The notes under the pieces were generated by a model. That model did no database searches and was not told where the DNA came from. It saw only the letters and a program-made list of their open reading frames with translations. From Coffea arabica (Eukaryota; Streptophyta; Magnoliopsida; Gentianales; Rubiaceae): a DNA stretch of 64,000 bases. The translations under genes were made by a program, and so were the position numbers. The stretch spans positions 9,424,001-9,488,000 of the forward strand of contig NC_092329.1 in assembly GCF_036785885.1 (NCBI RefSeq). Direction: 5' to 3'. Positions 4,901 through 26,026 of the stretch are shown one piece after another (positions within the stretch are counted from its first letter, which is position 1; every line of letters starts with the position of its first letter).

Positions 4901-7364
4901 GAAAGAAATTCTTTTTTTCTTTAAGGAAGGAGGAGGAGAGGGGGAAAAAAAAAGAAAGGAGTTGTCAGCGCCAGCACCGGCGGTTGAGATGGGAAGAGGA
5001 AGAAGAAGAAAAAGAAAGGAAAGAAGTGAAATTTTTTGTGTATTTTGAGATATGTATTTTAAAATTTCGAAGAGTTTTTTGAGGTTCGTATGTATTAAAT
5101 ATTTTACTATAACAATAATGTAATTGAAAAACTTTTACTGTAGACGAGATTATTTTTTAAATTATTTTTTTTTTGTATTTTTGGTGTTTTTAAAGTTCTT
5201 TTTGATATTTTTTTTGTGTATTATTGTAGCATTGTAATTGAAAAACTTGTTTTTCAAAAATCTCCAATCCAAACAGAGTTGTCATTTCTTCTGTAATTCT
5301 GATTGAGAAATTTTCTTGACAAAGTATTGCAATTATTGTCAAGGCTGAATCCCTAATTCCATGCTTGATGATTCCATTTCACGCTTGTTGTCGAAATAGC
5401 ACATATGTCCTCATATTTGGTTTTTCCAATATTGTGCTAGCTTAGGAATTTATACGGTGGTAATACATATTGCTTTACTCATAATATCATGGGCTAAATT
5501 AAGCATATGTAATGTGACTATTCTTACTTTCAAGGTTCATTTACATATGCTGCTCATAAACCATTTACAGGTTGGTCACTGATATTCCAGCCACCACAGG
5601 AGCATCATTCGGTGAGTAGTTCATTTTTTCCCCTTTTTTCTTTTGTTTTTTGAAATTATTGGTGAGTATCTCTCTTTGTTCGTTTAAAGATTGGTTCGCA
5701 TATGTTTCTTACCATTTCTATCATCGCACAGATAATGGGATATGTATGTGTATGCATCTGGCACATGAATAAGGGAAAATGCTTTATCAAAAAAGAAAAA
5801 AGAAAAAAAGAGGCAAATAGAAAAAAGAATACTAGCCAGGACCATAGTATCCGAAAATGCTTTCTTTGGCCTTCTTTCCCCGGGTAATTTACAGATGACG
5901 TTCTTGAACTTTGTAACGGATTCTATTTGGATCTTTAAAGTTCAGAACTTATTAATTGGTGTAATTACTCAAATTTGCTCCCACTAACCTTGATTTTGTA
6001 TTGAAGATACGTTTGATTAAAGGAGTAAAAAGGGTAAATAGGCGAGACATCCTTAAGCTTGATTTTAATCTCTAAACTTCAAAATCCATTTAATCTATCC
6101 CCCTATTTCGCCATTATTAATTATATACTTTGGGAGATAAAATAGTGATTCACGTTATATGCACACTTTTACTAGGCGTAAGACATAAAATTGCAGGAAT
6201 TATAGGGAACATAATTCAAACAAATGTGAAAAATGGCTCATATGGACTACCTTAGCAAAACTTTCAGAGGATTAAGATTGAATTCTGATCAAATGTTGAA
6301 GGATATTCAATTACCCTTTATTTCCCACTAGATCTTGTCATGCACTAGTTCTTGGACGACAACATCACAGATCACACCATCCAAAAAGAAGGGATGAGCC
6401 GACCTGATCAGACTCACATGTTGATCAAATTAAAGCTGCGATGAATTTTGCTTATGTCTATCCGCTTTGATGCTTATACTTGTTTGCTTCTAATTTTCTT
6501 TTTCCTCTATTTCCATTTTTGAACAAACATTATCTTTTTAGGGCCTGACTAGACCCGAATCTCTAGCTGGAAAATTCGTTCTTTCTCCACACTTGAATTT
6601 TTTATCGCTCCCATTTCCATTCTCGGTGGCAGGCAATCTCCTTGATGGCTCAATCCACATGCTTGTCGAACTTCAGAAATGATGTTTTGGGTTCGACAAC
6701 TTCTGTTGATTTGTATAAGCGTGTAGCATTTGAATCAATAATTTTACCTGAATCACTCTCCATCTTTGCATGCTTTTCATTTGAGTACATATAGTCATGA
6801 AAGGATGTCTGAGTCAAGAAATATGTGATCATCGTTGCTCCTAGAAAGACGTTGACAGTATTTTATTGGTCAATAATTGCACTGTGGAATGAGAAATTGG
6901 TTGCATGAATATGTTTCTCAGGCATCCGGGTCCAATATAGTATTGGTTACCATTTTTTTTTTTTTCCTTTCCTGTGACAATTTTAATGTCTAACAGCTCC
7001 AAAACTCTGAAAATGTTACGTACCAAATGAAATGATACCCAAAAGATATTGGTAGTCATAGAAAACTGGTAAACCATAATTTTGCCAGTCATGTCTGCGT
7101 TGAGGGGATAACTCGCATTATGGTGATAAATGTGTAGGCCAAGAAATTGTGTGCTATGAGAGTCCACGGCCATCAATGGGAATCCACCGCTTCGTCTTTG
7201 CGCTTTTCCGACAGCTTGGGCGGCAGACAGTCTATGCTCCGGGGTGGCGCCAGAACTTCAGCACCAGGGACTTTGCTGAACTTTACAATTTAGGTTCGCC
7301 TGTTGCAGCAATTTACTACAATTGCCAGAGGGAAGGTGGATCTGGAGGCAGAAGATCGTCATGA
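1993..7364 (+). CDS. FT: FLOWERING LOCUS T-like PEBP protein (florigen), 4 exons, 175 aa
   Basis: Exons 1993-2190, 2979-3040, 5571-5611 and 7138-7364 join in phase. Their sizes (198, 62, 41, 227) match the classical FT layout and give 175 residues, the same length as Arabidopsis FT. The family is a mobile phosphatidylethanolamine-binding-like protein that moves from phloem to the shoot apex and acts with FD and 14-3-3 proteins to trigger flowering. Visible marks: [10 protein letters not shown] ligand-loop motif (residues 70-79), Tyr84 (FT Tyr85, the activator residue, where TFL1 has His), segment [10 protein letters not shown] with Trp137 and Gln139 (FT Gln140), and the C-terminal NCQRE. I therefore call it FT-type, not TFL1-type. 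Oddity: the usual LGLPVAA of segment C reads LGSPVAA (Ser154). The reading frame is also open upstream to an ATG at 1867, which would add 42 residues; I chose 1993 because family members begin just before DPLVVGR. Intron 2 is 2.5 kb and repeat-rich. Confidence 0.95.
3380..4460. repeat. Degenerate direct-repeat block in FT intron 2
   Basis: The motifs 'acatcttactcaccccac', 'gatcatggagtcca', 'cccacatct' and 'gtggttcatac' recur four or more times at irregular spacing between about 3500 and 4140. The block ends near a short C-run at 4387. It resembles a decayed dispersed transposon (possibly LTR or Helitron-like) rather than coding DNA. No terminal repeats or target duplication were resolved. Confidence 0.45.
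4794..5278. mobile_element. Probable MITE in FT intron 2
   Basis: The left end reads 'cccgtttgaatggtgag' and the right end, reverse-complemented, 'ctctgtttggattggaga', an imperfect terminal inverted repeat. The interior is AT-rich with repeated 'attgaaaaactt' and no coding potential beyond a K/E-rich low-complexity frame. Similar 'gtttggattg' ends occur at 49294-49435 and 63883-64000. No clear target duplication was found. Confidence 0.35.
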
Positions 7365-8990
7365 AAAGCCATCTGTACAATTAATGTTATGTTATTTTAA
7401 CATAACAGTGCAGGTGTGCTGATGATCACGTCTTTCATAATTGTATGCGTCAACAGTGGCTCCTTATCTACCTTTTGATAACTCGAACTCGTAGCCTCTC
7501 AATTATTATAAGTGAAGAGTTTTATCAGTTGAGCTGTACTTCACCTGAAAACAAGTAAAAATAAGTGTATCTTGCCACTCTTAGTACTACTTAGGTGATT
7601 TGTCGGGGCCACAGAGTCGTATCTGCTTTATTAATACTAGTAAGAAATGATCCCAATTTATTGCATCATGACCTCTTAGTGTTTACGGGGGATCACAATT
7701 ATACAGATGATCTATTTTACCTGTTACTCGCATGTCATGGGTATGCCCAAACACCTGAAGTTGAAGATGGTCGAGATGGAAGTTTACCCTTGGAACCCAT
7801 GTTGGCTTGGAACGGTTTCTAGCGTCAATCCCACTTATCATGTGAGGGTAGAAGAAATTTAAATAAACAGTATATGACAAGTTAACTAAACAAGATACTT
7901 GGCATAAATATAGAAGTGATATTGAGTTGTTACAGGAAAAGTGGTACTGAAGATCCCGTGTAGGCTTGGAAAGGTGTATTGTTCTTGAGGACCATTCACG
8001 GCTCAATCTGTGCACCTACAAAATTTCCAAGCCTGAGGAATGTTTCTCCTCAATTTATTGTTGGAATGAAACAGAGTTATTCGCAACTAAGTCATGACTC
8101 ATGATGATCAAATAAGCAAGCTACAAAATACAAGAAAATCGAATAGCTACTCTTGAGTATGTAATGACTCCACCAAGCATGGCCTAGAATATCCAGTTAA
8201 TCAATGGAATGATTGATCTAAGGACCATTATTTCTTAAGACATTTGAGTTCACAGATTTTCGCATCAGTTGGTACAGTGATTTTTATGTATTTATTTATT
8301 GTCAGAAGTTAAATAGTGAAATTGTACAAATGTAAGAGGAGATAAATAATGTACCAATGAGCCCAATGGACACATAGTACGTGCACTAACCGGCACTCAG
8401 TAGAGACAAAACCATTTGCAATCTAGTAATCAGGTAATGGATTTTCTGAAAAATGGCAGATAAGTATTCTTGTTTCAAGAACAACGAATTATAAGCATCT
8501 AGACAGGGTAGTCCATTCTAAGCAAATTTTGTACAGGTGAGAACCTTATAGTATAGACAGTAATTTCTGTTACCATTACTAGACTCGTGTTAATGAATCG
8601 AGGTGTTCAAGAACAAAGTCCAATTTGACTCAAATAAGTTCAATTTCAACTCGTTGGTTTGATTAAATTAATGGAGTTCGAACACCTAAACAAGCTCAAT
8701 CAATTAACAAGCAAACACGAACCTTTTGTTTTTGTGAGCATTAGTTTTTGTCTGCGAAACAATTGCTTCATATTATGCTATTACTTTTGTTTATGCTTTG
8801 TCAATCAATATAAGAGAGTTCTCAAGATTAAAAATAAGCTAGACTCTATGTTTTCAAAACATTTATATCGAAAATCAACTTCAAGCATGAATAGCTTATT
8901 TTTGTAAAATGAATTGAGCTCGAGATGATTTTAAACTTAGGTTATTCTTAAATTAGCCGAACTCAAACAATGATTTTATCTCATAAAATT
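7365..8990. other. Intergenic DNA downstream of FT
   Basis: This holds the FT 3' UTR and intergenic sequence. Short open frames at 7595-7822 and 7683-8015 lie opposite each other and match no family I recognise. I see no RNA gene or clear transposon boundary. Confidence 0.4.
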
Positions 8991-10112: not shown

Positions 10113-10522
10113 CGGTTTGTGGATGCTACTCCAATTATGGTGTGGACAATACACAACTAGGAGTAGGATTCCCAACAGGACCAATGCATGTGGAGGGAAA
10201 CATTTGGAATCCAAGTTATCTTGGGACACCAGATTGGACACAAGGGCCATTCAAGGCTCACTATCAAGAATTTGGCAAGGATGGATGCCAACAAAAGGCT
10301 TCCAATCCGGGACAATGTTCCTTCCAATCCTAGTATTGGAATCAAAACAAGTATTGGCAACTTTTTTCTTTGTTCTTTGTTTTTTTGGTTGGAAAGAACA
10401 AGTATCGGCAACTAGACTCTGAGCAGCAATGCAGATTGCAAAATGCGAGGAAAAGTTATATGTATGGAGATTACTGTAAGGACCCAAAAAGGCATGGCCC
10501 AGATTGTGAAGTTAATCAATAG
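10113..10522 (+). pseudogene. XTH pseudogene A: isolated last exon
   Basis: This matches exon 4 of the intact XTH genes closely, from the WFVD-type start to the stop after the N-Q end. Exons 1-3 are missing: the upstream sequence (about 9850-9965) matches the promoter of the minus-strand XTH at 24508-26026, so promoter and last exon are now nearly adjacent. Disabling changes: the acceptor is altered (CAAG before CGGTTTG), a 4-base deletion follows the PIxVW codons, the codon before YWNQ is TAG, and about 51 bp including a poly-T tract are inserted between two copies of 'aacaagtatyggcaact' (10346 and 10397). Family: secreted xyloglucan endotransglucosylase/hydrolase, GH16. It is not expected to make protein. 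Confidence 0.9.
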
Positions 10523-10607: not shown

Positions 10608-11845
10608 GGGATAATTTCAGAAGCCTCCCTTGAGGTTTTTCCTAATCACACCTAGCACTCCTAAAGTTTCTGAAATCATACTTAGCACCCTTAGAATGAC
10701 AACTTTTGTAACATATCACCTCCTTTAGGTAAAAATAGTATTAAAAAATGTACTTAGGAGAGAGACTATAATATTCTTCCACGTTTGCCCTTTTGCAAGT
10801 TGATTTTTGAAAACTTGAAGATGAAAATAAAAACAAGTTGATTCTTTTTAAGCCTTTTCCATATTTCTTATGTAGGAAAAGGCAAGAAAAAAAAGAAAAA
10901 ACATTTATGTTCGATTATATAAAAATAAAGTAACAAAAATGCCATAAAATATGGGCACATTTTGGGCGCTATTTTTTTTTTTTGCATATGCAATCGAATA
11001 TAGGTTTTGAAGTATTTAGACAATCTAAACATAGAAAATCAATTTTTTTTTTTAACTATGATTTTATCTTGTTATCTAGTTTAATCAGTAAGAGGTGAGG
11101 GAACAATAGGTTAAAATCATTCATTTGGTGAAAAAAAAGGCTGATGGCATATAGTTTTTTTTTTTTTAAACAATCTCTTTATTAATCAACTGCAATGAGG
11201 GAAAAAGAAACAAAATGCAAATTGCTACCTAACAAGCTAACAAAACTCTACTCCTACGAAGGCTCAGAACGCCCAACCGATCCAGAGTAATATCACCTCT
11301 CACCAGGCGAGGCAAGTCAGAGAACGAACCATACGTTGAATTAATCATACTGCTGGCATGTAGTTGAAATCATGAAAAAATGCATATTAAATATACCTAT
11401 AATAGTGTTCAATTATCAAAAACAAATTTTTTGAAAAATTGGTTAACAAACAGTATTTGTTGAACATAGTTTTGTGGTTTTCAAAAAAATTTTATTTCCT
11501 TTCTATCCAAAGCTTTGGCACAGATCTTATAATGGTCATATGAATCAATAAAAATTATATAATTCAGCAATTATTGTACTTACACCTCCTCAATTTTTAT
11601 GTAAATATTGCAATCCTATTTGTTTTTATTTTCATATTCTAAAATTCAAAAATCAACTTGCAAAAGGGCAAAATTGGAAGAATACTATAGTCCCTCTACT
11701 AATATATTTTTTAATATTATTTTTACATAAAAGGGCTGACATGTTACAAAGGTTGTCATTCTAAGGGAGTTAAGTGTGATTTTAGAAACATGAGGGGTGT
11801 TAAGTGTGATTAGAAAAAACCTCAGGAGGTTTTTGAAATTATCTC
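10608..11845. mobile_element. Mutator-like element MULE-1, about 200-bp TIRs, 9-bp TSD
   Basis: The ends GGGATAATTTCAG and (complement) GAGATAATTTCAA open inverted repeats of about 200 bp that run to 'aagttgatttttga' on both sides. They are flanked by the perfect 9-bp direct repeat TAAGTTATA (10599-10607 and 11846-11854). The element interrupts the 3' flank of XTH pseudogene A; the uninterrupted site is visible in reverse orientation near 24410-24440. It has no transposase frame and is non-autonomous. A 9-bp TSD with long TIRs is characteristic of Mutator superfamily elements. Confidence 0.88.
11156..11349 (-). mobile_element. Short poly(A) retroposon nested in MULE-1
   Basis: A poly-T tract (poly-A on the minus strand) is followed by about 175 bp of sequence lacking polymerase III boxes. 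A 15-bp imperfect direct repeat, CTGATGGCATATAGT (11141-11155) and CTGCTGGCATGTAGT (11350-11364), flanks it. It looks like the 3' end of a truncated LINE or a processed transcript inserted by target-primed reverse transcription. Confidence 0.65.
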
Positions 11846-12605: not shown

Positions 12606-15600
12606 GGACAATGCTTTAGTAACGATAGTTGTGGTAATGAAACAGTTTTTACCTAATATAATAGGTTGTTGCACTTTTAGCGACCATTTGATTATTTATT
12701 AGATCCATCCACCTAAATAAGATAACAAGTAAAAATATGGAAGTAAGTTTCCTATCTAAAATAGTAAGTTAACCTTAATAGATTAGTAATGTTAATACCT
12801 CAAAAGGTAAATTGGAATAAAAATTAAACTTACTTTTTAAATATATAAATTACTACTTTATATCCCAAACTTACTTTTTAGAGAGTAAGTTTAGTTCAAT
12901 TAACAGTAAGTTTTTATACATAAATAGTAATTCTTACTAATAACATGGTAAATTTGATTAATGATCAAAACTTACTGATTTTTGGAATACATGTACAATT
13001 TTACATTAAAAAATTATCTCAAACTAGTATTAGGAATTTTATTTGAAATAATGATAAGATATTTTCATGAATGATTAAAACTTAGTACCTTAGTTAGTAA
13101 GTACTCATAATATACCTGTATAATAAATGATTATAGGTATAATTTAAATTCTTTTTGTATTTATATATTTTTAAATACTATGAAAAGTACTTTCACTTTT
13201 GAAATAACCTTGTAAAATATGTAATAAAATTTTGTCATATTATAAGTTTTTAATCATTTTCGATTTTTGAGAAGTTTGAATATTTGGATAACAATAACAA
13301 CAAATCTTTCTAGTTATATATAGAATATCACTTGTTTATATATCACAATTTTTATAATTTAACACCTATGAATATAATAAAATTAATAAAGTTTTAATAA
13401 ATTTACATCTGGGACACAAGAATTAATAAGAGTTAAAGCCCAAACAAAATGAGAAATAGTATAACAATAAAAATGACAAAATTAGTATAACGGTTAATAT
13501 AAGAAAATCAGTATGATCTAGCCTTTTTCCTTGGGAGATTGTTCATAAAAATAACATCCAACAATTAAATGAAAATCACTTGCACATATAATCTATTGTA
13601 TAATTTAAACTAAATCCAGTTCAAGTATAAAACGGTCCAAAAATAATTAGCGCACTATGATACAATGTTATTTTAACAACAAAATTTTTTTACTAAAAGT
13701 CTCAAATATCCATGACATACATATGAGGGATATGTTACCATATTTGTATCTACCTATAAGCACAAATTTCGTTGCCGAAAATAAAATACATGAAAAGTTG
13801 CACAAATATCAAATTTATTAAATCAAATAATAAGAGAGTTACAATATCTAAAAATTCTTTTTTCTTTTGATAATTACAATCTCTAAAAATTCTTGAATCA
13901 AAGAAATTAATCCCCTAATTCCTCTCTTGAAAAGCACTCCTAATTAAAGCATAATAAAATCAAGCCTTTTTTTAACTTTTTAATGTAGCAGTTTTGTTTA
14001 CTAAAAAGTTAGTAAACCATCCTTACAATGCATTGCTTCTACCAAAAGTACTAATATTTTGTAAATAAATTGAAATAATTTTGTAAAAGATTTTATGCAT
14101 TTTCACTAATATAATCAAGAGAATTTTGCACCTTTAAAATATAAATAGAAAGAAAGGAAAGTGGTATGAGTCTAAAGGTGACCAAATAAAATATATATCA
14201 CATCATGTGTTTTGATATGATTTGTTAAGTAATCAGTAATTTAGTCCTGGTCAATATATGATGCATATTGATTTCTTATAAATAAAAATATAATTTAGCA
14301 ATTATGCACTAACATAATTCATAGTTTGAATGCAATCAATTGAGCACCTATTTCCTTTTTTTAAGTAGCTATTATTTATTTTATTACTTAGGTTATATAT
14401 TTACATGTAAAATAACAACAATAGCATGCCAATTCTCGGACCAACAGAACTTCAATTATTGTCAACTAAACTAATTTTACATTGATAAAAATTAGTCTAG
14501 AAAATGAAATGTTAATGGCAACAATTGGTAAAAATAGCAATCTTTTAATTTTGGGAAAATAAAAAATAATTTCCCAAAATATTTCACTTTTATTTTTTTT
14601 AAAAATCTCAACTTGTTAATTAAATTCAAAATGATTTTATTATAAAAAATATTCTTCCTCAAATTAACATCAATGATTAGACATGAGATACAAATATGGG
14701 AAAAAAGAGATAAAAATATGGTAAAATATCTCTCATACATAAATCATGGATATTGGAGACTTTTGGCAAACAAAATTTTTGTTGTTAAAATAATATGGTA
14801 TTGTAGTGTGCTAATTATTTTAAGATCATTTTGTACATGAACTAAATTTAATTTAAATTATATAATAGATTATATATGCATGTGATTTTTGTATAGTGGT
14901 TGGATCTTATATTTGTAATCTCCAGAGGAAAAATTTTCCAAATTATACTAATTTTGTTATACTAATTCTATTATTTTTATTGTTGTATTAATTGTTACAC
15001 TATTTCTTTCATTTTGTTAGGTCTATATTAATACAAGTTTAATTCTTATTATTTCTTGTGTCCTAGACAATAAATATATTAAAACTTTATCATCTTATTA
15101 TATTAATAGGTTTTAAATTATAGAAATTACATAGATAAGTGATATTCCATATATAACTAGGAAGATGTGTTGTTATTATTATCCAAACTTTTAAACTTTT
15201 CAAAAATTATTCAAAATTATAATACAGCAAAATTTTATTATTTTATAAGGTTAGGTGAAAGGTCATGTATTATACAAGTATATTACGAGTACTTACTAAC
15301 TAAGGTACTAAGTTTTAATCATTAATAAAACATTTTATTGTTATTTCAAATAAACTTCCTAGTATTGGTTTGGTATAAGTTTTGTAAGCAAAATAGTACT
15401 TTTGTGCCATATATTAGTAAGTTTTGGTCATTAATCAAATTTACTATGTTATAAGTAAGAATTACTATTTATGTATAAAAATTTACTATTACTTGAACTA
15501 AACTTACTCTCTCAAAAGTATGTTTGGGATACTCTTTAAAAAGTAAGTTTCATATTTATTTCAATTTACCTTTTAAGACACAAAAGTTACTAATTATTCG

Positions 15601-15768
15601 GTTAACTTACTATTTTAGATGAGAAACTTACTTTCTTATTTTTAGGCATTATCTTATTTAGGTGGATAGGTACAACAGGTAATCAAATGGTCACTAAAAA
15701 TATAATAACCTGTTATATCAGGTAAAAACTGTTTAATTACCATAACAATAGTTACTACAGTATTTTCC
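12606..15768. mobile_element. Foldback MULE-2: 3.2 kb with about 1.1-kb inverted arms, 9-bp TSD
   Basis: The perfect 9-bp duplication CTGTGGGCA flanks it (12597-12605 and 15769-15777). The left arm from 12606 to about 13760 matches, inverted, the right arm from about 14690 to 15768, sharing for example 'ccacctaaataagataa' and 'cttagtaccttagttag' with many point differences. The core of about 0.9 kb (13770-14690) is AT-rich and unique here. No transposase is encoded; the 82-residue frame at 14492-14740 is low-complexity. It is a non-autonomous Mutator-like or foldback element. Confidence 0.88.
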
Positions 15769-15777
15769 CTGTGGGCA

Positions 15778-16739
15778 TACCACTAACATTCCAAAGTCAT
15801 CCAACGGAACTACTAATTTGACAGTTTTCTCACAACAATCTTTTGCACAAGTGAACTTCCACCGCCCCCAAACCCCCCCCCCCCCCTTCTCTCTTATTGT
15901 TTGTTGGTTTCTTTAAACAATCTTCCTGTTGTTATTGGAGAGAAACTTTGCCTACAGTTCTTTTAAGAACTAAAACGAGAGGCTTAGAACGATGAACAGG
16001 ATTTAACGTAGCTTATATAAAAAAAGCCCTACTTTCTATAAAACAGCGGCCATTACACTAAAAATCACTGCAGAAGTGACAAACATGCTGCCTTGTTCAC
16101 CCAATCATTCACATAATCCAAGAAATCTTTCAATTTCCCACTTGTCACCCTAGCTAATGACTTGAACTCGTGATCTCTCGATTATAAGTATAACATTTTA
16201 CCAACGAAGTTTTGTTTCGTTGTACTTGACCTATAATATATCATACATGATATAATACAGATATGTACACAACCAATTACTCTCCACAAACAATTGCTAA
16301 CCAACATTTTATATTTCACTATCTTTCAATTTTACATACGTTACATTAGAAAAATGCTGTAACAAAAAAGACAATATTTTTATTTTCTATATTTTTTTTT
16401 GGTGGAGAACCTATATTCAATATTACAGAGAAACAAATTATTAGTTGCATTGTGTGCCACAAATGCCCTCTTATATACAAGTGCATGTCTACTATACAGT
16501 TGGTCAGTTAACTACGGATGTAATATTACCTTGGATGTGACATTGTAAATGTACGACTGATATAGACATGCATTACCATGTATGTAACAACGCAAATGTA
16601 TGTATACATAGCCAATGTAAAGATAAGAAACAGCAGTCTTTTGCTTCATCTGTTGAAATATTATATCTGGCTTAGCAAAACTGAACTTCATGCAACTATT
16701 TTCTAGTCATATTCATGTTGTTTCCTGGTCTAGCAATTC
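15778..16739. other. Spacer between MULE-2 and XTH pseudogene B
   Basis: There is a C-homopolymer (about 15 bases) near 15871-15886, a 'tgtatgtaacaacgcaaatg' stretch and no coding signal. It may contain the decayed promoter of pseudogene B. Confidence 0.3.
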
Positions 16740-18540
16740 AGTAGGCAAAAGGAGGTGGTGATAACACTTTTGGTCAAAACTACTAGCAAACATGGGGAGG
16801 CGATCATCTCACTGCCCTTGTTCATGGAAAAAGACGTTCATATATTCTACACACACATATATTGATATATATATACATACATACACATATTAATGACAAA
16901 CCGGAATATATTCTAATAGACACATTTACTCAATAGTCAACCGCGTAATGAATGCTCTTATATATGTGTCTCTTCAAAAGGTGCATGTATCATTTTTAGG
17001 TTTTCTATATCACGCTTAGACTTGAATTTCCATATAGCATCAGTATAAAATGTACTAGGAGTAAAACGCTTGAGAAATCTAGTAATTTCAGGATTTATGA
17101 AATAAATATAAATTTTTGGAATTTCAGTGTAAAAATGATAAATTATACTTGTAATTCACTAATTCTACATATAGCCATTTTAATTCCATTATAGCTAGCT
17201 ACCTATTCTATCCCTAATGGGTATTTTGGCTGGTTAGAAGCTGGATTCAGTTCAAAGAGCGAGTTTGGATCAGGCTATATATTTTGGCATGAAGGCAAAG
17301 GTAGCAGAGAAAAACAGCGAGGAAATCGACGCAGGATTTAATGTAAATGACAAACATATTTCGTTGAATAGTTGTACTATATATTTTTCCTTAAATCTTT
17401 ATTCGATCATATCATGTGTGATGAAAGTCAGTTCCGGCAGGACAACCTGTGCGGGGGGTGATGCATTATGAGCTTGACGTAGATTTTTTTGTGGAACCAA
17501 TGGTAATCCTCAAATGATAAGTACAAATGTCATCGAAAATCACACATGGGATGGGAGTTGGGGGCCGGGAGACAATTTTGTCTCTGGTTTGATCCTAAAA
17601 TGAATTTCCATCGCAAACGAGATTTTAAGGAACCAATGCCAGATTGTACGTGTAAGAAATCCCTTATCTTGTCTGCCAGAAACTCTTAATCAAATGCATC
17701 AGTCATTGTATATAACATTTCTATCTGTTCCTGGAACCCAATTCTATTAGACATTTCATACTTAGAAGGAAAGGGAAAAATAAAACCTTTTTACGAAATC
17801 GACTTCCAGCTAAAAAACCATTTGATTCATTTGGTTACCTAAAAAATTCTGTGTGAAAATATTGTCAGCTCTGTGGAAATATACAGAGCTTGGATTAGGT
17901 TCTCCAAAAAAAAGTGGGACTTATGCATGTGGTGGCAAGCATTTCGAATGCAACTTGGCTTGGAACCCCGGCCGTATTGGAGTGAAGGGCCATTCAACTT
18001 TCAAGACTCACTATCATGGATTTTTCAATGATGGTTGCCCTAATCACCAGAGTCCCAACCGATCAATATTCTTCGGAATCAAATTACTGGAATCAAATCA
18101 AGTATTGGCAACTAATTAGATCTGATCAAGAAAGTAAATTACAAGATATATAAAAGAGACAATCTATCCATGCCATATACTAGAATGGAGTCCTATAGGG
18201 TTGTAGTAGTTATTATTTCCAAAAATTGAAAATTTTGGAACATTTGCTCCTCCTTCAAATTTTGCTTAATTTTTGTTGTTGTGTTGAATGGGTAAAAACA
18301 AACTTATGTCCAAGAAGACATGCATTTAGCTTTTCCATTGTTCTTAATGAGGTTTTTGTATGAATGGGTATTTGATTCAGAAAAAGTATTCTAATTTAAG
18401 CTAAAATTCTGTAATCACGTTTAAGTTTCTCCACTTCTTTTACATTCAATAATCACGAATTACAAGTTAGCTATATGTAGTATACTGATTAATATAGCCA
18501 CACAAATAGGCATGGTCCAGAATGCGAAGTTAATCAATAG
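16740..18540 (+). pseudogene. XTH pseudogene B: all four exons as decayed remnants
   Basis: The exon 1 remnant at about 16745-16840 encodes an NY-stop-QTWGGDHL-type segment, with a stop inside the N-terminal domain. The exon 2 remnant (about 17230-17352) keeps the GFSS/FGSGY region but has indels. The exon 3 remnant (about 17430-17663) keeps VPxGQPV and HYELDVDFF, then shifts frame. The exon 4 remnant (about 17864-18155) has lost its start and is separated from its last codons (RHGPECEVNQ-like, 18494-18540) by about 340 bp of other sequence. The order and orientation match the intact gene at 20626, so this is an old tandem duplicate. Confidence 0.88.
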
Positions 18541-20625: not shown

Positions 20626-21207
20626 ATGGAATTTTTGCTAGTTGTCTTTTCCTTGGTTCTTGTTCTTGCAACTAAAAATGCAAATGGCGGCGGTGGATTT
20701 TCCTTTGATGAGTACTACTATCAAACATTCGGAGGCAATCATCTTACCATCCTTGACCAAGGAAACGAAGTTCAACTTCTATTGGACCAATCTACAGGTC
20801 AGATTACACAAGTAAAAGATTAATGTTGGTTTTTGGATGTTAATTCTTTGAGTTTTGGCTGTTAAACTACATAATATTTCCACACATAAATCTTTGATAT
20901 ATTTCAGACACATGTAACATGTTATATGAACTTTTCCGTTCATATACTGAAAATATCTCCAAAAATCCAATCTACATTAGGTATAAAGCTACAAAGATAT
21001 TTTTCCTTTTTAAAAAACTTCTGGCAATACCTAATTGGTATTTTCTTGGTTATACATGTAGGTGCTGGCTTCAGTTCAAGAAGAGATTTTGGTTCAGGGT
21101 ACTTTGGTATCAGCATGAAGATACCAGACAAAAACAGTACAGGGGTTGACACATCATTTTATGTAAATCACTAGATTTTACATACTTTAATTAATGATTT
21201 AGTCTAC

Positions 21208-21291
<84 letters not shown>

Positions 21292-23643
21292 TGTCATAAT
21301 TAATCTTTTCTATGTTATGTCTGAATTAACAGCTAATTTCAGTTCCAGTAGGACAACCAGTTGGAGGTGTGAAGCATTACGAGGTTGACATTGAATTTTT
21401 TGGGACCAATGGTAATCCTCATGTGCTGAGTACAAATGTGTTCATGAATGATTTTGGTGGGAAGGAGCAATTATTTCATCTCTGGTTTGATCCTACGGTA
21501 GATTTCCACAAGTATGAGATTCTTTGGAACCAAAACCAAATTGTGTAAGAATTCCTTTACAAATTCAAACTCTTATATATGTACTATTTGCTTTTCCCAT
21601 CTATTCTTTCAATTTTGATTAATTAATTGGCTAAGCTTCTTACTTTCTTTTGTCAAGTTAACAAAATTCCTTGCTTTGCGATAATATTGTGAAGCTCTTG
21701 TTAAAGAACAAATAGAATTGGTTTTATGGGTATACAAATTCAAGAAAATAAAAACTTTTATATTTCTCTCAATGATAAATATTGGTAGACAGAAAAAGAA
21801 GCATAGATTCTACAGAATTAAAAGTATTTGAATAGAAGTCAGAAGTGATAATGATTAATGATTAATGTTGTTGATTGGAAATATCTTTAAAACATCCCTC
21901 ACATTTTGTAAAATAATTTTTCGTCCCTTATTTTAAAAATATAATTTTACGTCCCTTACAAATTCACATTGATCAAATTTGGTCCCTACTTAGGCTTCTG
22001 ACTAGTTTTTAGTCGGAATTCATCACGTGCCTTGCACGTGATCATATTTTAAGGGCAAAATTATCAAATCAAATTTTATATAATTCGATTCATAATCCCT
22101 TACATTTCACAAAATGAATTTTTTCATCCTTCACATTTTTCCAAATGAATTTTTTCATCTTTTTTTTTATCATGTACGTGAACAATTTTTTTTTAAATTC
22201 ATGTATGTATCTATTTGATTTCAACTGAACAGTACGAATAGCATGTGGAATCAAATAGAGATATATTACATACTATTCGTATTGCTCAAGTGAAATCAAA
22301 TAGATATATACATGGGTTTAAAAAAATTGTTAGTTTTTCACTTATATTCATTTTCTTTTACTCGAAATTTGAAAATAAAGAAGACATTTAATCCTAAATA
22401 TTATCAAGCGTTTAGATCGAATTAAATTTGGACAGAAAAAAATAAACAAAAGAAAGTATGACAAAAAAAAATAAGTGATTGGCATTTTCAAATTTTAAGA
22501 CAATCACAAGACAAGTAATTCAACTGTTGATCTTAAAAGTGTCGAGTAGAAATTTCATATTTAAACAAAAATTTGTTAGCATAATTATAGAATTCGAGTT
22601 AGGACCCATTAATTAGATAACCTTAGTATATAATTCAATAAATAAATTATTACCAAAAGAAAAATATCACAAATATTGAATAGGTTCAAATGGTGAAATC
22701 ATATAAATATATACATGGGTTTCAAACAAAATTATTAGTTTTAAACTTCTATATATATCTATTGAATAGCATGTGTATAACTACGATTAGCATGTTTAGA
22801 TGAAATCCAATAGAGATAAATTACATGTTATTCGTACTGTTCAGGTAAAATCAAATAGACATATACGTGGGTTTATAGAAAAAAAAACTATTCATACACA
22901 TGATCAATGAGGGATGAAAAAATTCATTTTAAAAAATGTGAGGGATGGAAAAATTCATTTTTTGAAATGTGAGGAGTGAAACAATTCATTTTGTAAAATG
23001 TTAGGGACGAAAAAATTCATTTTGTGAAATGTGAGGGACTATGAATCAGATTATGTCAAAATTTAATTTAACAATTTTGCCCTTAAAAAATGATCACATG
23101 CAAGTCACGTGGTAGATTCCAGCAAAAAACTAATCAGAAACCTAAATAGGGACTAAATTTGGTTAATGTGAATTTGTAAGGGACGTAAAATTACACTTTC
23201 AAAAATAAGGGATGAAAAAAGTGATCTTGTAAAATATGAGATACATTTTAAACGATTTTCCCTTGTTGATTTTTTGCAGGTGGTTTGTCGATGAAACTCC
23301 AATCAGAGTTTGGAAAAACATGTCAAATCGGGGAGTGGGCTTTCCGGCAGTACCCATGCATGTGGAGGCAAGCATTTGGAATCCTAATTGGCTCGGAACC
23401 ATAGATTGGAGACAAGGCCCATTTACGGCCCATTATCGTGAGTTTCCCATCAACGGTTGCCGCTACCAGGGTTCGAACCCACGGGACTGCTTTTCCCAAA
23501 ATTATTATTGGAACCAACCGCAGTACAGCCAATTAAGTCCTGATCAACAACGTAAGCTTCGAGAAGCCAGGAGAAATTACATGTTCGAGGACTACTGTAA
23601 TGACCCAATCAAGAAAGGCCAAGAATGCCAGTTTAATCAGTAG
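20626..23643 (+). CDS. Xyloglucan endotransglucosylase/hydrolase (XTH C), 4 exons, 282 aa
   Basis: Exons 20626-20797, 21062-21162, 21333-21544 and 23280-23643 (172, 101, 212, 364 nt) join in phase, and the lengths equal those of the neighbouring minus-strand copy. GH16 XTHs are secreted wall enzymes that cut and religate xyloglucan. The hydrophobic signal peptide covers residues 1-19. The catalytic motif is HYEVDIEFFG with Glu108, Asp110 and Glu112, so the ExDxE core is kept, but the usual DE(I/L)DFEFLG is changed to YEVDIEFFG. An N-glycosylation sequon is at Asn82 instead of the common one after the motif. HLWFDPT, VDETPIRVWKN and a four-cysteine XET_C tail (NYMFEDYC, QECQFNQ) follow. I chose this ATG because it starts the signal peptide; the frame is open further upstream. 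Intron 3 carries a 1.4-kb MULE next to the acceptor. The subfamily looks divergent; whether it is a transferase or a hydrolase cannot be told. Confidence 0.9.
21211..21285. repeat. (TA)n microsatellite in XTH C intron 2
   Basis: About 37 uninterrupted TA units make up much of the 170-bp intron between exons 2 and 3. The corresponding intron of the minus-strand copy has no such tract. It is likely length-polymorphic. Confidence 0.95.
21877..23262. mobile_element. MULE-3 in XTH C intron 3, about 430-bp TIRs, 9-bp TSD
   Basis: The inverted arms begin GGAAATATCTTTAAAAC and (complement) GGGAAAATCGTTTAAAA and share blocks such as 'ttacgtcccttacaaattc'. The perfect duplication TTGTTGATT flanks it (21868-21876, 23263-23271). 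Its right end is 17 bases before the first base of exon 4, so the acceptor region now reads TSD, TTTTGCAG, then exon. Without element and TSD the intron would be about 340 bp, close to the 269 bp of the minus-strand gene. There is no transposase; it is non-autonomous. Confidence 0.9.
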
Positions 23644-24060: not shown

Positions 24061-24507
24061 ATTTAAGATGCTTCAAACTTAACCATTTATAAGAGGAAAA
24101 AAATGTCTAAATAACTGACATGTTGATGTGTGATTGTAAAAAAATATATATATGTAATTGATTTTCAAAAGTCTAATTAATTATGAGGAAATAGAATTCA
24201 AAATTTTTCTTAATTTCTTAAATTGAAAAAATAGATGAAATTGATTTGTGATTAACTAATTATACGGAAACATTGTATAGTTTCTTCACATTTGTAAATT
24301 GGAGAATGGACATCGTATTTTTGGGGTAGAGAAATTTTTTTTTTAATTTTTGAAAAAAGAAAACTAGATATGGCCCCATCAAACCGAGGTCTAAACAGAA
24401 AGGTATTGTCCATATATCTTATTCAAGAACCATCTACATATATATATCATTCATGAGCATTTGATTACTAATATGACAAGGAAGGAGCAAAAATGGAACT
24501 TCATTTT

Positions 24508-26026
24508 CTATTGATTAACTTGGCATTCTGGGCCATGCCTGTTTGAGTCCTTGCAATAATCTTTATACATATAATTTTTTCTTGCATTTTGTAATTTGCC
24601 TTGTTGCTTAGGGTCTAGTTGCCAATACTTGTTTTGATTCCAATAATAAGATTGAGAGGAACACAGGTCCTGCTTGGAACTTTGGTGATTGCATCCATCA
24701 ATGCCAAACTCTCTATAGTGAGCCTTGAATGGCCCTTGATACCAATCTGGTGTCCCAAGATAGCTTGGATTCCAAATGCTTGCCTCCACATGCAATGGTC
24801 CTGTTGGGAATCCTACTCCTAGTTGTGTATTGTTCTTCCACACCCTAATTGGAGTGTCATCCACAAACCACCTGCAATTGCACAAAAATACATCATAAAA
24901 TAATTTTAAAAGAAAGTTAGAACAATCCCTTTTATTTTATTAGTATGAAATATGTGGTAAAATTAGCTTTCTAGATTACATTATTGGTAACCTATAATGG
25001 ACAAGGGCAGATGCAAACTTGTTGAATTTTTTGAAGCTGCTTAATTTCAAGGATAAATAACACAAAGTTTATTGCTTTTGGGGTTAATGGACTCAGATGC
25101 CTTGAAACATGCCAAGAGTCCCAAGTAAAGAAATTCTTACACAATTTGGTGTTGGTTCCAAAGGATCTCATAAGTGTGAAAACCCTTGGTAGGATCAAAC
25201 CAAAGATGAAATTGTTGCTCCCTGTTTCCCAGATCATTTGCAAAGGCATTGGTGCTTATGATATGAGGATTACCATCAGTTCCATAAAACTCAATGTCAA
25301 ACTCATAATGCTTCACACCTTCTACTGGTTGTCCTACTGGAACTGAAATTAACTGCAACAACAAATTGACAAGGGGAACAAAAACTTGAGAAAGAGTACT
25401 ACAAGTGCTAAAATGATACTTAGGCAAATTAATGATTGTGTTTGTTTAGGTCATTTACATAAAATGATGTGATAAGCCCTTTACTGTTTTTCTCTGGTAT
25501 CTTGATCTTCATGCGAAAATAGCCTGATCCAAAGTCTCTTTTCGAACTGAATCCAGCTCCTACACCACCCAAGAAACCAAATATTAGAGACGCCATAACC
25601 TGTTTTTTGCATGAGAAAGTTGGTCTAATGTTATCTTTTACTTTTTCCAATACAGATCTTTATTGTAGTGTAATTTACAGATACTGATTTATACTATCTT
25701 GAATTTGATTAAAAACATTTTAGATTGATTTTGTCGAATAGAGTATCTTCAGCTTGATATCCAGTAGCCAAACACAATAGGTTTTTTTTTTTTTTTAAAA
25801 AAAAAAAAGAAAAAAAAAGAAAAGGCAGAAGACAAAATCCCTTTTACTGTTAACCTGAAGAAGAGTCCATTAGAAGTTGAACTTCATGTCCTTGATTGTA
25901 AACTGTGAGATGGCTACCTCCCCATGTTTGATAGTAGTTTCTATAAAATGGATCATCGCCATTGCCTTGGGCACAGTTAATCGCAGCAACAAAAACAATG
26001 GGGAAAATGATTAACAGATAATCCAT
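24508..26026 (-). CDS. Xyloglucan endotransglucosylase/hydrolase (XTH D), 4 exons, 282 aa
   Basis: On the minus strand the exons are 26026-25855, 25559-25459, 25352-25141 and 24871-24508 (172, 101, 212, 364 nt), the same architecture and length as XTH C, about 860 bp away and convergent with it. The signal peptide MDYLLIIFPIVFVAAINCA has a likely cleavage near residues 18-20. The GH16 motif HYEFDIEFYG places Glu108, Asp110 and Glu112 in the catalytic core; Tyr107 replaces the usual Asp. HLWFDPTKGFHTYEILW, VDDTPIRVWKNN and the four-cysteine XET_C tail (NYMYKDYC, PECQVNQ) are present. It lacks the NST sequon of copy C (NSK here). Intron 3 is short (269 bp) and free of transposons. It is expected to be secreted to the wall and act on xyloglucan. 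Start choice: the frame is open 33 codons further up, but only this ATG gives a signal peptide. Confidence 0.92.

Follow-up and report, generated by a model that had tools for sequence, protein, structure and literature searches.

In intron 3 of an XTH gene of Coffea arabica we found a Mutator-like element (MULE), which occupies the same site in a second copy of the gene; the exons are intact and constrained in both copies. The account that we consider probable as a whole is that of an old insertion, with one end of the MULE serving as a new half of the acceptor region and splicing still taking place at the original acceptor. A non-autonomous element would have entered the intron before the two C. 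arabica ancestors separated, splitting it 17 nt ahead of exon 4 while the U-run and the GCAG acceptor stayed in place. The element's end, a pyrimidine-rich and AG-free stretch, would then have become the upstream half of the acceptor, also supplying a degenerate branch-point-like TTTTRAAC whose A is 27 nt away from the end of the intron. Removal of intron 3 would still use the old acceptor, with the protein unchanged. Judged from sequence, the insertion looks like a tolerated one, neither fresh nor damaging, and the gene has apparently been working with the element for millions of years.

The window (the whole stretch of 64,000 nt that was analysed; NC_092329.1, positions 9,424,001 to 9,488,000) carries the gene on its forward strand. 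Exon 1 (20626..20797), an open frame with a GT border, encodes the N-terminus and the start of the Pfam GH16 domain; it is followed by exon 2 (21062..21162), exon 3 (21333..21544) with the active-site stretch HYEVDIEFFG, and exon 4 (23280..23643), the last coding exon, with the remaining part of GH16, the XET_C domain and the stop. As the first-pass annotation had stated, the four exons are open and in phase: joined, they encode in frame a protein of 282 aa, with GT/AG borders throughout. Pfam matches in this protein were PF00722 (7.8e-43) and PF06955 (5.3e-08, 33 bits with a cut-off of 31.3), the GH16 match covering residues 28-202. In the best solved relative, 1umz, to which residues 26-271 were aligned, HDEIDFEFLG stands opposite the exon 3 stretch (HYEVDIEF versus HDEIDFEF); E-x-D-x-E, which we take to be the XTH active-site motif, is kept. 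By its GH16 and XET_C domains and this site the gene is classified as an XTH, with enzyme activity predicted.

Intron 3 (21545..23279, forward strand) is 1735 nt long; subtracting the element and one copy of the duplication that flanks it leaves 340 nt. Its GT/AG borders and phase are as required in the window copy and in the second copy alike. Retention of the intron would lead to an immediate stop (...NQIV*, 162 aa). Exon skipping, earlier offered as an outcome of the insertion, does not apply to a terminal coding exon; as exon 4 is the last one, failure of splicing would mean retention or use of a cryptic site.

The element itself, 1386 bp at 21877..23262 (no strand assigned), has the boundaries proposed earlier: it is flanked by two copies of the 9-bp target site duplication TTGTTGATT, at 21868..21876 and 23263..23271, which are the only occurrences of this sequence on the forward strand of the window, and it ends 17 nt before the start of exon 4 (23280). 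Its terminal inverted repeats occupy 21877..22157 (left arm, forward strand, 281 bp) and 22977..23262 (right arm, reverse strand, 286 bp, 83% to the left arm); 21877-22157 and 22977-23261 are 83% complementary over 286 alignment columns. There are 31-bp tandem subrepeats inside the arms, and the longest ORF entirely within the element has 54 aa. No second copy was detected in the window, where the one other match was of 28 bp. Searches in Rfam at gathering scores and exact-pattern scans of viral and prokaryotic contigs with a stretch of the arm gave no match.

A chance direct repeat was rejected on the basis of controls. Among 3000 randomly drawn anchor pairs, an exact duplication of at least 9 bp occurred in none within ±2 of the anchors and in 0.27% within a wide search box; with spacing fixed at 1386, 9/9 matches appeared in 4 of 200,000 draws; and the element scored 323, while the top score among 957 draws away from it was 277, a value due to further inverted repeats near 10.5 kb in the window. 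Among 21 inverted pairs of <8 kb in the window, the three with long arms had a duplication of at least 7 bp (exactly 9 bp in each) and the other 18 had none.

The search of the genome with the right arm yielded 2682 first-look candidates, of which 40 were scored; 39 places other than the query matched at 88-91%. Both ends were present, 1331-1468 bp apart, in 30 of the 39 fetched places, while nine did not qualify as having both. At these 30 places the duplication had 9 bp in 23 cases, 10 bp in six and 8 bp in one, lengths of 8-10 bp being sought; it was exact in 21 cases, with one mismatch in seven and two mismatches in two, these nine being candidate duplications. A few of the 30 (e.g. L014, L020, L022) are of low complexity. 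One of the 30 places, L010, is the second copy of the same insertion described below; we dropped it as an independent nearest copy.

With an exact 9-bp duplication (9-11 bp being expected of a MULE), terminal inverted repeats of 281 and 286 bp at 83% (typically 100-500 bp), a dispersed repeat family and no ORF of at least 60 aa inside, the element is, on sequence features, a non-autonomous MULE as this class is defined in the introduction of PMC3310237. The MULE identity assigned at first pass is thus borne out by the ∼285-bp arms, the duplication and the other places with both ends. The condition named earlier as refuting an insertion, namely that the segment is ancestral intron, was checked and rejected given the duplication and the dispersed family; in the intact paralog of the gene intron 3 has only 269 nt. 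We also sought a clean empty site in this paralog and two pseudogenes and did not find one, because intron 3 barely aligns between paralogs.

The paralog (24508-26026, minus strand) faces the focal gene and has amino-acid identity to it of 65-73% in exons 2-4 and 52% in exon 1; its copy on contig C19 (L058) carries one extra residue (CKEDSN) in exon 4, in frame. Pieces of XTH pseudogenes with stops or frame breaks were seen at 7770-8076, 10160-10519 and 16697-18147, and in L050 at about 5695-5974. This is a decaying XTH tandem array, with two intact members found in the window. The second long-arm element (10608-11845) has the exact 9-bp duplication TAAGTTATA; the region flanking the intact paralog on its 3′ side shows the empty site of this element, with one target mismatch, at about 24405-24421 on the minus strand. 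The third (12606-15768, 3.2 kb) has the exact 9-bp duplication CTGTGGGCA. Upstream of the window there is a ∼537-bp relative of the focal element's arms (L053, C20 about 9419716-9420252), for which a narrow search gave no 9-bp duplication at up to one mismatch.

The left part of intron 3 matched at 98%, in two pieces, a region of C19 (8072900-8073595) that directly adjoins L010. The C19 gene and its element align in order with the window copy (C20), with the element at the same site and the left duplication identical (TTGTTGATT); the right duplication in C19 is TTGTCCATT, with two changes. The C19 copy alone has an extra insert of ∼312 bp in intron 3 (L010, C19 about 8073153-8073465), the flanking query pieces overlapping by 3 bp. 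We infer that the C19 copy is a homeolog of the C20 gene rather than an allele. The dS between the two genes (0.029-0.042) is near the value of 0.026 given for C. arabica in PMC9040051, under a heading that we take to denote subgenome dS. As the same insertion is present in both copies, it is older than their split; if the copies are homeologs, it would predate the separation of C. canephora and C. eugenioides, which PMC11018527 puts at 4-6 My.

Arm-arm divergence and identity of the duplications were dropped as uninformative for dating. Bracketing with L028, the nearest other sampled copy, places the insertion at ∼0.023-0.039 substitutions per site if equal rates are assumed, a rough figure given three sampled sequences in the subfamily and unequal branches (43 versus 21 changes, p=0.008). 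The first-pass annotation had the insertion either tolerated or recent, and its second option did not survive. That the insertion is recent, so that the gene had no time to decay, agrees with the identical duplication copies of the window, but the C19 copy shares the insertion at an element divergence of 4.5% and carries two changes in its right duplication. Only a homeologous exchange that brought the locus to C19 would save this reading, and noncoding divergence of 3.85% speaks against a recent exchange; we consider a recent insertion extremely improbable.

Tolerance, the other option, finds support in the constraint on both genes. Between C19 and C20 we counted 10 differences at 849 coding sites (seven synonymous, three amino-acid changes, no indels) versus 115 at 2990 aligned sites of flanks, introns and element (3.85%), with 22 indel events; the noncoding count excludes 26 sites with two changes, namely both duplications and the final 8 nt. 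The contrast holds for substitutions (p=4e-5) and for indels (0/849 versus 22/2990, p about 0.008). The dN/dS values were 0.0045/0.042 by NG86 and 0.005/0.029 by YN00, and the probability of at least seven synonymous changes among ten under neutrality is 0.005. Exon 4 alone, with 4/364 substitutions and no indel, evolved more slowly than noncoding sequence (p=0.004) and the MULE (p=0.002); exons 1-3 had 6/485 (p=0.002). By these sequence measures both XTH copies are intact and under constraint. The dN/dS of the paralog pair (0.231/1.09 by NG86; exon 4 dS of 2.98, near saturation) is uninformative about the period since the insertion and was set aside.

In ordinary expression exon 4 enters the protein only with intron 3 removed, because retention stops translation after residue 162. 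Provided that the element was present in both copies all along, selection worked on a gene needing splicing across it. Intron 3 is probably spliced efficiently. An ORF of 135 aa (23236-23643) has its ATG within the MULE end and continues in frame across exon 4. A transcript started in the element could encode the C-terminal part of the protein, and the constraint on exon 4 could partly reflect such transcripts.

One may suppose instead that the insertion damaged splicing, much of the pre-mRNA retaining intron 3 or using cryptic acceptors and the gene persisting with reduced output or a truncated 162-aa product. The branch-point candidates available today are indeed weaker than those of the inferred empty site, and an intronic MULE was described as lowering expression of CsMYB60 (PMC6305189). 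Yet exon 4 is conserved as well as exons 1-3 (4/364 versus 6/485), and neither XTH copy has a frameshift or stop. We regard such damage as very unlikely, though output may be reduced, and return to the preferred account, in which the acceptor would still function with the end of the element.

A usable branch point is expected about 18-40 nt from the acceptor. Candidates were scored with an ad hoc, crude measure that counts pairing to U2. The inferred empty site offers five candidates at 4.0, from -19 to -33, i.e. more and better ones than today. The native branch-point-like stretch (21851..21867, forward strand), which is so called by the U2-pairing score only, has two TTAAT, at -26 and -19 in that site, and one 7-bp unit fewer in C19. 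Among today's candidates in range the best is the TTTTAAAC of the MULE end TTTTAAACGATTTTCCC (23246..23262, forward strand), with the A at 23252 (-27) or 23251 (-28) scoring 3.5 each, in front of a pyrimidine-rich end. The counterpart in C19, TTTTGAAC, sits in the same place and has 3.5 at -27. The element is followed by TTGTTGATTTTTTGCAG, with the remaining native acceptor TTTTGCAG (23272..23279, forward strand) unchanged in C19, and no AG occurs between the MULE-end candidate and GCAG in either copy.

That splicing relies on the MULE end or the duplication for its branch point, as suggested at first pass, is plausible from the sequence, and the two places differ in merit. TTTTRAAC, with its A at -27 in both copies, is the better candidate. 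TTGAT in the duplication scores 4.0 but is an unlikely branch point, since it is 10 nt from the intron end (-10) and reads TCCAT in C19. The score of the MULE end is not special, because 40% of random sequences from the window, put in front of the same 17 nt, attain 3.5 (and 22% attain 4.0). In its favour, the intact paralog has no AG-free candidate above 3.5 in its introns 1 and 2 either. When the 62 ends of 31 copies of the element were placed before the same 17 nt, 60 gave an AG-free end of at least 20 nt, one of the two short ones being the focal element's own left end, reversed; 53 had a candidate of 3.5 and the rest of 3.0. This test shows compatibility of MULE ends with acceptor use, not function. 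In the paralog and one pseudogene the acceptor is preceded by CTAAC/CTGAC at a distance of 45/41 nt; assigning the native branch point by homology to these was abandoned, as there is no counterpart near the focal acceptor and a short match at ∼21637 is too weak. Among the literature matches listed we found no paper on MULE ends as branch points, which is no proof of absence.

The adenosine may also be the native one, if the arms pair in the pre-mRNA and loop the element out so that native TTAAT (A at 21865) becomes usable again, ∼28 nt from the acceptor across the base of the stem by hand count. In the predicted minimum-energy fold of intron 3, 220 of the 281 left-arm bases are paired with the right arm; the stem is closed at 21877-21892 with pair probabilities of 0.81-0.98, except at 21882, which has no partner. 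Next to the base of the stem A21865 sits in an open loop, with a probability of 0.99 of being unpaired, and the bases of the MULE-end candidate (23249-23252) take part in pairing. A similar fold, with 216 bases, was obtained for the C19 intron. Still, such folding is to be expected of every element that has long inverted arms, and we know of no plant intron that has been shown to work by a looped-out stem. Selection on the stem is not visible: 16/440 stem sites changed versus 46/946 others (p=0.33), and among 15 changed stem pairs four were broken, 10 kept by a one-sided change and one by a two-sided change. Within the arms paired sites did change less (20/482 versus 11/85 unpaired, p about 0.009), a comparison biased by taking the structure from one sequence. 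Stems that shorten the distance from branch point to acceptor are described for yeast introns in PMC12350175. Renewed use of the native TTAAT across such a stem strikes us as rather unlikely on this modelling, and the idea that the transposon's arms make a self-looping intron insert, letting the spliceosome use the old branch point, as unlikely. If it were true, long-armed MULEs would be systematically tolerable beside acceptors, in either orientation.

Under the account that we favour, with the MULE end as the new half of the acceptor, the gene amounts to a natural experiment that asks how much native sequence a plant 3′ splice region needs at the least: a 17-nt remnant plus a transposon end was apparently sufficient in two lineages since before their split. 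If the copies are homeologs of one allotetraploid, the question of the branch point can be tested in a single plant.

Insertions of this kind are already known; closeness to the acceptor, age and two constrained copies make this one a good test case. Like the plant non-autonomous Mutator-like elements (TIR-MULEs) outlined in the introduction of PMC3310237, the coffee element has a 9-bp duplication, ∼285-bp arms, no transposase ORF and many copies of similar length; it differs in family-specific sequence only, its arms having the 31-bp subrepeats. In yeast introns, according to PMC12350175, a stem could shorten the effective distance as it might here, whereas in our case, a plant intron, the stem would consist of the arms of a transposon and its use is predicted only. 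The cucumber CsMULE (PMC6305189) is likewise an intronic MULE, located in intron 2 of CsMYB60 and having a 9-bp duplication; it has 6994 bp and its own transposase, is polymorphic among lines and lowers expression, whereas the coffee element is non-autonomous, common to two gene copies and only 17 nt from the acceptor.
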